NCBI RefSeq assembly: GCF_001623525.1
Contig: NZ_CP015225.1
Location: 496,001 to 560,000 of the forward strand
Source: Pseudomonas fluorescens
GTDB lineage: Bacteria; Pseudomonadota; Gammaproteobacteria; Pseudomonadales; Pseudomonadaceae
Reading direction: 5' to 3'
DNA: 64,000 nucleotides
This document shows positions 20,569 to 62,481 of this stretch, one piece after another. The notes beneath the pieces are model-generated. The model saw only the letters and a program-made list of their open reading frames with translations, was not told the DNA's origin and made no database searches. The translations under genes and the position numbers were made by a program. Numbering within the stretch: position 1 is the stretch's first letter; the number at the start of each line of letters is the position of its first letter.

Positions 20569-20602
20569 TGTGGCGAGGGAGCTTGCTCCCGCTGGGCTGC
20601 GA
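20569..20602. repeat. Left part of a family A REP, cut by IS110 element A
   Basis: TGTGGCGAGGGAGCTTGCTC through GGGCTGCGA. The REP hairpin normally continues AGCAGCCC, which is found after the IS at 22151. The 2-bp GA at 20601-20602 recurs at 22149-22150 as the presumed core. Confidence 0.88.
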
Positions 20603-20614
20603 TATAGGTAGTCC

Positions 20615-20818
20615 GTTCCTTGCTCCCCCATACTGATACTCGCTGGAGTCCGGTTGTTGCGAGGAAGGAACATGCACCTGCGAGCTACGAATAGGGCTGC
20701 AACGCATCTCGATGATTACTGCTTCACCTTCGAGCCCAGCAGGTGCGCTTGCGCCCTCTAACGAACACTCAGGGAAAGCCGGGCACGGCTCTCTATATCG
20801 CCTTCGCTGGACGCAAGC
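20615..20818 (+). ncRNA. Predicted bridge RNA of IS110 element A
   Basis: Three helical parts can be read. A 5' stem-loop pairs GTTCCTT (20615-20621) with AAGGAAC (20665-20671). The target loop is closed by GCACCTGC (20674-20681) with GCAGGTGC (20739-20746) and by CGAA/TTCG (20688-20691, 20729-20732). Inside it, GGGCTGC (20694-20700) equals the left target at 20594-20600, and CTGCTTC (20719-20725) is complementary to GAAGCAG at 22149-22155. The donor loop is closed by GCTTGCG (20747-20753) with CGCAAGC (20812-20818) and again CGAA/TTCG. Its right guide CTATATC (20793-20799) is complementary to GATATAG at 20601-20607. The left guide CTCAGGG (20768-20774) occurs at 22139-22145, three bases out of register. 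Confidence 0.8.
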
Positions 20819-20861
20819 ATGCATGTTCCTGCATGTACTTTAGCGTCTGTGGAGGTGTGCG

Positions 20862-22130
20862 ATGCAAACGCTCTTGTCTCAGAAATTCACTGCTTATATC
20901 GGAATTGATTGGGCCGATACCAAACATGACGTCTGTTTGCAGGTTGCTGGGCAAGCCCAGCGGTGCTTCTCGGTCATCCGACACAACCCCGAAGCTATTG
21001 ATCAATGGGCTCATGCGCTGTATCAGCGTTATGGCGGTCCTATCGCCATTGCCGTGGAGTTAGACAAAGGACCGTTGATAGCGGCCCTGCAAAAATATGA
21101 TTTTTTTTGTTTGTTCCCGATCAACCCCGCCACCTTAGCCAAGCAGCGTAAGGCCTTCGTTCCCAGCGGTGCGAAGGACGATCCGAGCGATGCCCAGTGG
21201 GCACTTGAGCTATTGCTCAAGCATCCCGACAGATTTCCCCAGCAGGAGAAACAAAGTCCTGCCATACGTTCTCTGGCTAGCTTGACTGAACATCGGAGAA
21301 CCTTGGTTGATGAGCGGGTAAGAATCAGTAATCGGTTGGTTTGCATGCTCAAGCAGTACTATCCGTTGGCGCTGGAGTTGTTCCACGATCATGACACACA
21401 GGTGTTCTGTGATTTCCTGGAGCGCTGGTCGACGTTGGAAACACTTAAACGTGCTCGGCCTACAAGCGTTTTGAAGTTTCTTAACGCGCATAATGTTCGC
21501 CATGCAGAACTCAATCAGCAGCGTCTGGCCTTGATCCTCAAGGCCACGCCGCTGACAGAGGATCCGGGGATTGTTAACCCTTCAGCGCTGTATGTGCGGA
21601 CCCTGGCATCGCAACTGAGTGGGATGCTGGTGGCGATCAAGCAGTTTGATGCGGCGATCGAAGAAACGGCCAATACCCTGGCCGATTACAGCCTCTTCAA
21701 ATCCTTGCCTGGAGCCGGGCAACAGCTTGCACCACGGCTAATGGTAGCTTTTGGTGAGCAACGTGATCGCTTCAAGGATGCTGGTGCTATGCAGCGATAT
21801 GCCGGGATCGCTCCGGTTACCGAGCGCAGTGGCAAGAAGAAAATCGTTCGCTGGCGCTATCAATGTTCAACCTTTTTGCGCCAGACATTTGTCGAGTGGG
21901 CTGCCCACAGCATCAATCAATCGGTATGGGCAGGGGCGTACTATCGCCAACAGAAGGCCAAAGGCTGCTCTCATCAAGCAGCCCTGAGGGCACTGGCTTT
22001 TAAATGGATCAGGATCGTTTATCGGTGCTGGAATGCTGGATCCCAGTATGACGAGAGCGTCTATTTACAAGCCTTGGCCCGCCACGACTCGCCTTTGATA
22101 AGAGCACCGGAGGCAACGAAAGCATGTTGA
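20862..22130 (+). CDS. IS110-family transposase (DEDD/serine recombinase), element A
   Basis: A 422-residue transposase. The N-terminal RuvC-like DEDD domain shows Asp in IGIDWADTKHDV, Glu in AVELDKGP and the Asp pair in AKDDPSDAQ. A long coiled-coil linker follows. The C-terminal Transposase_20 domain has LPGAGQQLAPRL and the catalytic serine in APVTERSGKKK. GGAGG precedes the ATG. The frame looks intact, so the element may be active. In IS110 systems this protein is guided to donor and target DNA by the bridge RNA from the left end. Confidence 0.93.
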   Translation: MQTLLSQKFTAYIGIDWADTKHDVCLQVAGQAQRCFSVIRHNPEAIDQWAHALYQRYGGPIAIAVELDKGPLIAALQKYDFFCLFPINPATLAKQRKAFVPSGAKDDPSDAQWALELLLKHPDRFPQQEKQSPAIRSLASLTEHRRTLVDERVRISNRLVCMLKQYYPLALELFHDHDTQVFCDFLERWSTLETLKRARPTSVLKFLNAHNVRHAELNQQRLALILKATPLTEDPGIVNPSALYVRTLASQLSGMLVAIKQFDAAIEETANTLADYSLFKSLPGAGQQLAPRLMVAFGEQRDRFKDAGAMQRYAGIAPVTERSGKKKIVRWRYQCSTFLRQTFVEWAAHSINQSVWAGAYYRQQKAKGCSHQAALRALAFKWIRIVYRCWNAGSQYDESVYLQALARHDSPLIRAPEATKAC

Positions 22131-22150
22131 CGGAAGAGCTCAGGGCGTGA

Positions 22151-22218
22151 AGCAGCCCTCCGGGCCAAATCAGCAGGGGCCCGCTGCGCGGTCCAGCGGG
22201 AGCGAGCTCCCTCGCCAC
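22151..22218. repeat. Right part of the REPIN cut by IS110 element A
   Basis: Starts AGCAGCCC, the second arm of the broken hairpin. After a short spacer comes an inverted REP, GGTCCAGCGGGAGCGAGCTC to CGCCAC at 22218. Confidence 0.85.
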
Positions 22219-24593: not shown

Positions 24594-24602
24594 CTGTGGG
24601 AG
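24594..24602. repeat. Left stub of a family B REP, cut by IS110 element B
   Basis: CTGTGGGAG, which in intact copies continues CGAGCTTGCTCGC. That continuation is found after the IS at 25780. AG at 24601-24602 is the presumed core. Confidence 0.85.
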
Positions 24603-24625
24603 ATTCTATGGTGCAGGACTACCCC

Positions 24626-25573
24626 CTAAATGCCTTTCGGTAAGTATTCGCTCTGGTTCTTCAGCAGGGCGAATACCACTCGGGCAAGCTTGCGGGCCAG
24701 TGCCACTAATGCTTCGGTTGTGCTGAGTCCCCGGGCCCTTAGTGCCTCATAAAAACCCTTCCATGCCGCTGTGCGCCTTGCCGACATCGCGGCGTTATGC
24801 ATCAATCGACGGGCCTCTGGGTCACCTCGCTTAGACAGGCAGCGGCGTCCCTTCTTTTTCCCTGAGTCCGATATACGCAGGTCTAGGCCCAGAAAAGCGA
24901 TGAAGGCATCGGCATTTCTGAAATCCCCACGCTGAAACGACGTGAGCAAACGGGCACCGTTCAACAGGCCAATGCCTTCGACTTTCATGCAACGCTTGAG
25001 CTGAGCGCCCAAGCCAGCGGCTTCCAACTGCGTCTGGATTGTTTTCTCGAGCAAGATCTCCAGTCGTTGCATGGCTTTTATCTGGTTCTCAAAGGCCCTT
25101 TTGAGCAACGGTTCGTTGGACCAACTTTGCTTGAGGCTGACACGCGCCTGGACCAAGGCTGCCCGACGTCGGAAGAGGCTTATAAGCCGGCAATACAAGG
25201 GCGATGGCGGGGTCCACGGGTGCAACTGGTGGCCTTCGTTGTTCAAGTAGCGAGCCAACAACCGAGCATCCAGCGCATCGGTTTTAGCGCGAACTTTCAC
25301 ACCTTTGCGGTAATGGCTGAGCTCGTAGCCGCCGATCATGTAGATCACACAGCCTTTCGCATAAGCCAGGTCGGCGAATTCCTGATGATAGATATTGGTG
25401 GCTTCGATGGCGACATCCACTGGCGCGGACAACTCCTTGAGCCACTTTTTGATCGCTGCCTTGGTGTTGGGGATCGCTTCCAGTCGATCTGTTTCTGCGT
25501 GATAAATCACCAACTCATCTTTGGCGACATCAACACCCACGATCGGCTTTGCGACAGAAACCGGCATTGCCAT
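24626..25573 (-). CDS. IS110-family transposase, element B
   Basis: A 315-residue transposase. The DEDD residues are Asp in VGVDVAKDEL, Glu in VAIEATNIYH and the Asp pair in KTDALDARL. The C-terminal Transposase_20 domain has VEGIGLLNGARLL and the probable catalytic serine in RISDSGKKKGR. GGAGG lies 7 bases before the ATG. The frame is complete. About a hundred residues shorter than the element A protein and only distantly similar, so the two elements belong to different IS110 lineages. Confidence 0.93.
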   Translation of the reverse strand: MAMPVSVAKPIVGVDVAKDELVIYHAETDRLEAIPNTKAAIKKWLKELSAPVDVAIEATNIYHQEFADLAYAKGCVIYMIGGYELSHYRKGVKVRAKTDALDARLLARYLNNEGHQLHPWTPPSPLYCRLISLFRRRAALVQARVSLKQSWSNEPLLKRAFENQIKAMQRLEILLEKTIQTQLEAAGLGAQLKRCMKVEGIGLLNGARLLTSFQRGDFRNADAFIAFLGLDLRISDSGKKKGRRCLSKRGDPEARRLMHNAAMSARRTAAWKGFYEALRARGLSTTEALVALARKLARVVFALLKNQSEYLPKGI

Positions 25574-25601
25574 TGAAAATCCTCCGGGCTAAGGTTTGAA
25601 C

Positions 25602-25766
25602 ACTTGAAGGGTTCACCCAGAGGCGCAGGCTTGTTCCTATCGTCGGTCTAGGCCAGATGCATTCTTTATCGGCGCTTGGGTGAAAGGAGGAGGGGTGAAA
25701 TCTCCCACGGTCTGTACTGCGGCTAACAGTCAGAATCGAGCTTTGTCCCTCCTCCTCCCTTCAAGT
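25602..25766 (-). ncRNA. Predicted bridge RNA of IS110 element B
   Basis: A clean three-way junction on the minus strand. The basal stem pairs ACTTGAAGGG with CCCTTCAAGT (10 bp; 25757-25766 with 25602-25611). The target arm is closed by 25747-25755 with 25686-25694 (GGAGGAGGG/CCCTCCTCC) and contains AAGCTCG (25743-25737), identical to the left target, and GTGGGAG (25708-25702), complementary to CTCCCAC of core plus right target. The donor arm is closed by TTCACCCA/TGGGTGAA (25684-25677 with 25619-25612). It holds AAAGAAT, 6 of 7 against the right-end ATAGAAT, and GAACAAG, 5 of 7 against the expected ATACAAG. Confidence 0.82.
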
Positions 25767-25779
25767 CCTACCATACAAG

Positions 25780-25858
25780 CGAGCTTGCTCGCGATAGCGG
25801 CGGCACAGCCTACATCTGCGCCAACTGATCCACCGCCATCGCGAGCAAGCTCCCACAG
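25780..25858. repeat. Remainder of the family B REPIN after IS110 element B
   Basis: CGAGCTTGCTCGCGATAGCGG, a 36-base spacer, then an inverted copy CCGCCATCGCGAGCAAGCTC ending CCCACAG at 25858. It lies downstream of the rarD stop. Confidence 0.85.
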
Positions 25859-25872
25859 GGCAGGCGGTGACC

Positions 25873-62189: not shown

Positions 62190-62481
62190 CATTGCCTACA
62201 CCTGCGCCAGAATCCGCCGGCTTGTGCACCTAGAGGCCGGGTTCTATCGTTTCCGGGTCGCTGAGGAATCAGCGATCGGGTTTGGTAGCCCTGGTGTCGG
62301 TGCATAGCGTCATCTCTTGCAAGTGCAATCATGCACTTCGCTTTTTGGTGGCCATGCGCAGGGTCTCTTCGGAGGCGCCGGCTCCGATGCCCGGTCTACC
62401 AACCTTCGTATGGCCGCCACCCTAATTCGTTTGGTAGCGAGAGGGTGTTGGCTCCCTTACTACAGCATCGGAGCTTCAACT
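62190..62481 (+). promoter_or_regulatory. Long structured leader of the DUF6124 gene
   Basis: A 290-base region with several structures. A perfect hairpin TCGCTGA-GGAA-TCAGCGA (62258-62275) has a GNRA-type loop. TTGGTAG occurs at 62282-62288 and again at 62431-62437, and CTACCAA at 62396-62402 can pair with either. A short-stem hairpin AGGG...CCCT with outer GTAG/CTAC follows (about 62434-62465). The ribosome site GGAG is 9 bases before the ATG. The two pairings exclude each other, which suggests a switch. Not matched to any known riboswitch. Confidence 0.5.

Follow-up and report, generated by a model that had tools for sequence, protein, structure and literature searches.

Element A lies in what appears to be a REP, and the question raised by this locus is whether the noncoding left end of the element encodes a bridge RNA whose guides specify that very site, as a sequence-only reading of the window (the whole stretch of 64,000 nucleotides analysed here) had proposed. 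The proposal is supported by the copies of the element at one repeat, by the covariation of guides with flanks in relatives, and by the stems of the predicted RNA, and we put the probability that the bridge-RNA explanation as a whole, that of a REP-guided IS110-type element, is correct at about 95%.

Element A spans window positions 20601–22150 (1550 bp) and contains a single forward-strand gene, in the product of which the Pfam domains DEDD_Tnp_IS110 (PF01548, 82.5 bits) and Transposase_20 (PF02371, 58.5 bits) are recognised. The protein passes the NCBIfam model "IS110 family RNA-guided transposase" (159 bits against a cut-off of 140) and matches the IS621 recombinase among solved structures with an E value of 1.6e-4. 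D16, D107, D110 and S323 align with the IS621 catalytic residues as these are named in PMC11208158, a two-residue shift in chain numbering being allowed and the three aspartates falling in a weak first-half stretch of the alignment (0.2 bits); E66 is assigned by motif only and lies three columns off the IS621 glutamate. The closest protein among the matches listed, from Pseudomonas mediterranea, shares 93% identity, and relatives of this sort suggest a Pseudomonas host. The gene is preceded by a long noncoding left end (259 bases from TATAG to the gene start) and followed by a short right end (20 bases past the stop codon), and these ends, the domains and the predicted two-loop RNA mark element A as an insertion sequence of the IS110 type. 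At gathering scores Rfam gives two matches in the window and none within element A; the two are a C4 antisense RNA (RF01695) and its a1/b1 targets (RF03163), at window 62244–62424. Matches occur in 88 plasmid records, the best of them (Cupriavidus) at 65.5% over 90%, and the next 39 of the 88 cover at most 17%.

Three guide segments had been put forward in the sequence-only reading, and their letters and coordinates proved exact (Table 1): GGGCTGC in the left end is identical to the seven bases left of the insertion, CTGCTTC is the reverse complement of GAAGCAG (22149–22155), and CTATATC that of GATATAG (20601–20607). To these we add a putative left donor guide, two predicted handshake dinucleotides (the handshake-guide concept being taken from PMC11208158), a candidate joined-end promoter sequence and an apparent preference for a GA core. 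After the left target guide the RNA reads AA at the positions of the GA core, so that the first core base (G) is unmatched. When the region 20608–20861 was subjected to 20,000 dinucleotide shuffles, the single 7-mers for the left target and for the core plus right target arose in 1052 and 1073 shuffles, and those for the right and left donors in 236 and 337, respectively; both target 7-mers arose together in 76 shuffles, and all four guide 7-mers together in none. One 7-mer match is unimpressive alone, at about 5% of shuffles per target guide; the full set, with covariation in relatives, is persuasive.

Table 1. Features assigned to element A and its flanks (window coordinates)
Feature	Position	Strand	Basis or remark
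Left target (LT) GGGCTGC, left REP half	20594..20600	+	identical in 8/9 copies; GGACTGC in L005
Left core dinucleotide GA	20601..20602	+	single GA in 79 unoccupied sites GGGCTGCGAAGCAG
Right donor (RD) TATAG, first bases of element	20603..20607	+	start of putative junction-promoter -10 (TATAGG 20603-20608)
Bridge RNA (predicted)	20615..20818	+	extent as in sequence-only reading; fold, covariation
Target-binding loop	20674..20746	+	closing stem 20674-20681/20739-20746; fold, covariation
Left target guide GGGCTGC	20694..20700	+	followed by AA at core positions
Right target guide CTGCTTC	20719..20725	+	complementary to core GA + AGCAG
Target-loop handshake guide AC	20726..20727	+	complementary to donor GT 22147-22148
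Donor-binding loop	20747..20818	+	closing stem 20747-20753/20812-20818; fold, covariation
Left donor guide CTCAGGG	20768..20774	+	absent from sequence-only reading; equals right end 22139-22145
Right donor guide CTATATC	20793..20799	+	complementary to core GA + TATAG
Donor-loop handshake guide GC	20800..20801	+	complementary to target GC 20599-20600
IS110 recombinase, 422 aa	20862..22130	+	domain profiles, IS621 structure alignment, motif
-35-like box TTGACG	22127..22132	+	overlaps stop codon; 18 bases from TATAGG once ends join
Left donor (LD) segment CTCAGGG	22139..22145	+	read by left donor guide (predicted)
CGT between LD and core	22146..22148	+	unmatched by left donor guide; last two (GT) match handshake guide
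Right core dinucleotide GA	22149..22150	+	flank comparison of copies
Right target AGCAG, right REP half	22151..22155	+	flank comparison of copies

The predicted RNA folds better than 200 of 200 dinucleotide shuffles (z = -3.40), and its minimum-energy fold contains the 8-bp stem that had been said to close the target loop, with some guide bases weakly paired inside the loop. The two loops are alike in this fold, each having a CGAA/UUCG closure, a 5' guide, an apical hairpin and a 3' guide, and share the pseudo-symmetric form described for IS621 (PMC11208158). In a MAFFT alignment of 40 bridge RNAs, 20 of 34 named pairs changed on both sides, and the named pairs formed in 91.1% of alignment cells compared with 22–44% for slid controls. 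Both-side changes were found in 10 of the 15 pairs of helix 1, which closes the target loop, and in 8 of the 10 pairs of helix 2, which closes the donor loop; the donor-loop apical stem (helix 4) is the weakest, being paired in 76.0% of cells, with one of its five pairs failing in 32 of 40 sequences. Unaided, RNAalifold called no more than the stem of the target loop plus two pairs incompatible with the apical stem of the donor loop; for the donor loop, we took the stems from the fold of the single sequence before counting their pairs in the alignment. The target-loop apical hairpin was excluded from the pair count because, on our reading of the alignment, MAFFT misregisters it in some rows.

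The genome (6.92 Mb, one contig) carries nine copies of element A at 99–100% identity. All nine are flanked by GG(G/A)CTGC-GA on the left and GA-AGCAG on the right, none being found with the same left end at an unrelated site, and all are inserted in one orientation relative to the repeat (L006, on the opposite contig strand, was read after reversal). Since their flanks differ outside the repeat, the nine copies look like separate insertions rather than one duplicated stretch. An RNA model, R1, built from 20667–20823 and relatives gave nine genome matches at E ≤ 0.01 (150 of 1564 first-look candidates scored), and CTCAGGGCGTGA has nine exact occurrences, 36 further one-mismatch places lying outside that count; among these scored candidates and exact matches, no orphan half-elements were seen. 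Over 199 genomes of the genus, the RNA model found matches in two, the element's own genome and G115, the latter being left unused. The joined flanks of the window locus were sought in 57 genomes, one of which (G010) matches both sides (query 3–520, 76%) and has at this locus a diverged repeat, GGGCAGC-GT-AGTGGCCC, without the element. From its palindromic form and its recurrence at 79 exact-GA sites, or 351 with any core, we infer that the repeat is a REP.

Relatives of element A were 46 from public genomes (47–85% best-segment identity) and further copies in G252, G262 and G274; among those listed, the left ends have a common RNA architecture with differing loop letters and flanks. Those with no guide region (L012, L032, L039, L043, L054, L055) or no left flank (L028, L052) were left out, and removal of duplicates reduced 53 left rows to 38 and 37 right rows to 26. 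Across the 38 distinct left pairs, flanks matched their own left guides at 234 of 266 bases, compared with a mean of 150.2 and a maximum of 175 in 20,000 permutations, none of which reached 234; the mean match was 6.16 of 7 to an element's own guide versus 3.89 to those of other elements. The match was 7/7 in 15 pairs, 6 in 17, 5 in four (L026, L033, L041, L053), 4 in one (L038) and 3 in one (L037), so matches of 5/7 or fewer make up 6 of 38. Right flanks matched their own right guides at 125 of 156 bases in 26 distinct pairs (permuted mean 92.5, maximum 109). The effect of kinship was lessened by the use of 16 disjoint nearest-element pairs, one of them merely 35% identical, in a test where the guide register was picked by each element's best match, a choice that leans toward agreement. 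Left positions in these pairs were the same in both flank and guide in 59 cases, changed in both in 39 and changed in one only in 14, changes thus coinciding at 39 of the 53 positions where either changes; the corresponding right-hand numbers are 33, 18 and 4, with coincidence at 18 of 22 positions, in the 11 of the 16 pairs for which both right ends were available.

The right ends of L015, L016 and L041 were registered by a wider search only, bringing the right ends to 40. CTCAGGG was not found within 260 bases past the gene's matched end in six full-length relatives with the left end present (L010, L017, L024, L025, L037, L038), and these are left out of the right-end tests. For L026, L033, L044 and L063, the register of the right guide either fails or seems spurious; among the spurious ones only L044 is below the filter of the handshake test. 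In the Paraburkholderia relatives L010, L015, L016, L017, L025, L037, L038 and L041, a right end either is absent or comes far past the gene, a post-stop stretch is common to several, and CTCAGGG is present further downstream in L015/L016 and L041; additional sequence past the gene may be present in these relatives. In G262, a 75% relative is present in four copies (L057, L061, L063, L065), all at GCCTCTC-GA, and in two of them the match is limited to residues 1–237, with an internal TGA.

The core dinucleotide also appears to be chosen. The genome contains 351 empty GGGCTGC-NN-AGCAG sites, 79 with GA and 272 with other cores, GC, GT, AT and AA among those listed, and GA, which occurs once in each of the 79 empty GA sites, is present on both sides in 9 of 9 copies, as expected of scarless insertion at a two-base core. 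If the core were ignored, the probability of this outcome for the eight copies with an exact left target would be 6.6e-6, taking the left core as target-derived; it was so taken because the left core varies in relatives while the right core is mostly GA. The possibility that the left-product core comes from the donor was set aside, 10 left dinucleotides occurring among the 22 AA-guided relatives versus a right GA in 21 of 32 rows. In relatives, the left-product core agrees with the core in the right donor guide at 48 of 72 letters (28.1 when permuted; 0 of 20,000 permutations as high), the left core being exact for 6 of 8 GA guides, 5 of 5 CT guides and, more loosely, 6 of 22 AA guides. The nine GA insertions among mixed-core sites point to real core selection, and, standing beside 351 empty sites of like shape, they amount to a natural specificity test within one genome. 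As a separate observation, the left and right cores of AA-guide relatives (e.g. L011, L013, L018, L022, L027, L040 and L042) disagree within a single element, TT and GA for instance, as though the core of the target could differ from that of the donor, each staying on its own side.

On the donor side, the match of the left donor guide to the right end is exact and ends three bases before the core. All 40 aligned bridge RNAs carry CTCAGGG unchanged, which places the left donor pairing beyond the reach of covariation. When its distance to the right target is set at 12 bases, as in our reading, 36 of 40 right-end rows give a right-guide match of at least 4/5 in the normal register, the spacing thus being constant in those rows, and L026, L033, L044 and L063 fall outside this fit. 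For the donor-loop handshake, 29 of 66 cells agree with the two final bases of the left target (20.1 expected; reached in 5 of 20,000 permutations), and for the target-loop handshake 24 of 42 agree with the donor (15.2 expected; reached in 0 of 20,000), both tests being uncorrected for kinship. By position, agreement at position 7 was 20/33 versus 14.0 for the donor loop (54 of 20,000 permutations as high) and 16/21 versus 10.4 for the target loop (2 of 20,000); the outer position 6 is weak in both, at 9/33 versus 6.1 (1219 of 20,000) and 8/21 versus 4.8 (460 of 20,000), respectively. Joining of the ends would set TTGACG 18 bases from TATAGG, a candidate junction promoter judged by sequence alone; TTG[AT][CA] is present at a spacing of 17–18 bases in 26 of 32 rows, the other six being without it. 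A joined-end promoter is already known in the IS110 family (PMC11208160; PMC11187229).

The DNA itself shows the guide matches, the joint variation of flanks and target guides, the stems, nine insertions into a single repeat with their GA cores, and the element-free locus of G010; transcription, the RNA-protein complex, the circle and the chemistry we infer from the work on IS621 and ISEc21. In the mechanism we propose, element A would excise as a circle; its ends, once joined, would form a promoter of the sigma-70 type, the junction reading CTCAGGGCGT-GA-TATAG, and this promoter would drive a bridge RNA of about 200 nt from the left end. The first loop would read the REP halves, GGGCTGC to the left of the core and GA-AGCAG across the core and rightward, and the second loop would read the joined ends of the element, CTCAGGG of the right end and GA-TATAG of the left. 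The DEDD/serine recombinase would then swap strands at the GA core, with no base loss and in one fixed orientation.

Recognition of the REP palindrome by the recombinase alone, the left-end matches being chance or relics of past insertions, would fit the frequency with which single target 7-mers arise in shuffled left ends. ISPsy8 (IS3) and ISRm22 (IS4) are not known to use a guide RNA. Both, as examples from other families, also target REP palindromes (PMC1525189). Such recognition by protein only is nevertheless barely credible for element A, as guides and flanks change together in the 38 distinct pairs and the 16 disjoint contrasts, targets other than this repeat included, and as the guides lie in two loops with covarying closing stems. 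It is also very unlikely that the left-end RNA is real and chiefly regulates the recombinase mRNA, in the manner of the sRNAs Asr9 and Ssr9 of the REP-dwelling ISPpu9: this would not predict loop letters that track the flanking DNA, even if regulatory roles do exist in the IS110 family, the two sRNAs tuning ISPpu9 transposase expression (PMC8450116). Because the RNA sits in the likely leader of the gene, it may have a second, regulatory role.

The donor half calls for more caution. We consider it unlikely, but a good deal less so, that only the target half works as stated and that CTCAGGG is a motif for protein binding or regulation common to the RNA and the right end, a reading in keeping with its invariance, and consequent lack of covariation, in all aligned RNAs and with its stopping three bases before the core, where the IS621 guide reaches the first core base (PMC11208158). 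Against a shared motif, CTCAGGG is found where the left donor guide of IS621 lies, 5' in the donor loop and by our count two bases ahead of its apical stem, and with a 12-base spacing to the right target most rows keep the normal right-guide register. Returning to CTCAGGG as a guide, we tentatively suggest, at somewhat less than even odds, that donor reading in the branch of long recombinases that includes element A follows a geometry unlike that of IS621: the guide would clamp CTCAGGG three bases short of the core, and the bases in between would fall to the handshake guide in the opposite loop. If this is true, right-end recognition and strand exchange use separate rather than shared bases, and the displacement of the left donor guide, once confirmed, would show which donor bases are separable from strand exchange.

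The window contains a second IS110 element (24601–25779; gene 24626–25573 on the reverse strand, 315 aa), the protein of which matches IS621 at an E value of 3.7e-19 and ISCro4 at 4.1e-16. Its six near-full genome copies are all (6/6) flanked by AAGCTCG-CT and CT-CCCACA, on our reading a different type of REP, and its left end contains AAGCTCG and GTGGGAG, which match its two flanks; the window thus holds two IS110 elements with predicted guides aimed at two repeats. Separately, a repeat of about 75–85 bp at window ~25778–25860 has 62 further short genome matches at 72–96% identity, and it is palindromic, since many of these are one place read on both strands.

REP targeting by the Pseudomonas IS110 elements ISPpu9, ISPpu10 and ISPa11 is described in PMC1525189, and with bridge RNAs also already described in IS110, element A adds a case to a known system. 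ISPpu10 of Pseudomonas putida, with a two-base repeat at the insertion point and 7 of 7 tabulated copies in REP (PMC1525189), and with a predicted bridge RNA and guides (PMC11208160), is, by its published description, like element A a REP-dwelling IS110 element with a two-base repeat and predicted guides. ISPpu9, all seven KT2440 copies of which lie at one REP position, differs in its two-base repeat, AG (PMC1525189) rather than GA, and its gene-flanking sRNAs have been studied as regulators (PMC8450116). ISEc21, with a seekRNA of 74 nt (PMC11187229), resembles element A in being IS110-type, in its upstream noncoding region and joined-end promoter (a candidate in element A), and in an RNA where the bottom-strand match precedes the top-strand match; it differs in its target, a conserved stretch in certain IS3-family elements rather than a REP, and in its transposase of 358 rather than 422 aa. 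Among the papers listed in a literature search, made partly on titles and abstract openings and mostly without subscription papers, none dealt with element A or with a left donor guide set back from the core. What is new here is modest, and specialists would look mainly to the core statistics and to the displacement of that guide.

The closest comparison is with IS621, whose bridge-RNA system has been tested experimentally (PMC11208160; PMC11208158). Element A would be a natural multi-copy bridge-RNA element, aimed at a repeat occurring hundreds of times in its host, and it shares with IS621 a recombinase of DEDD and Transposase_20 domains, a bridge RNA (here predicted) lying 5' of the gene, loops for target and donor that each have left and right guides and handshake bases, a REP target, a two-base core and a joined-end promoter, the last known in element A from sequence. 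The two differ in recombinase length (422 aa versus 328 in the solved IS621 chain) and in the core, which is GA in element A and not the CT of IS621 (PMC11208158) that would mark close kin of that element. They differ likewise in the left guides, the left target guide of element A leaving the first core base unmatched, unlike that of IS621, and its left donor guide stopping three bases before the core where that of IS621 pairs through the first core base (PMC11208158). Set beside IS621, the four predicted guides, two handshake pairs and GA core of element A offer a worked parts list for a non-CT bridge recombinase.
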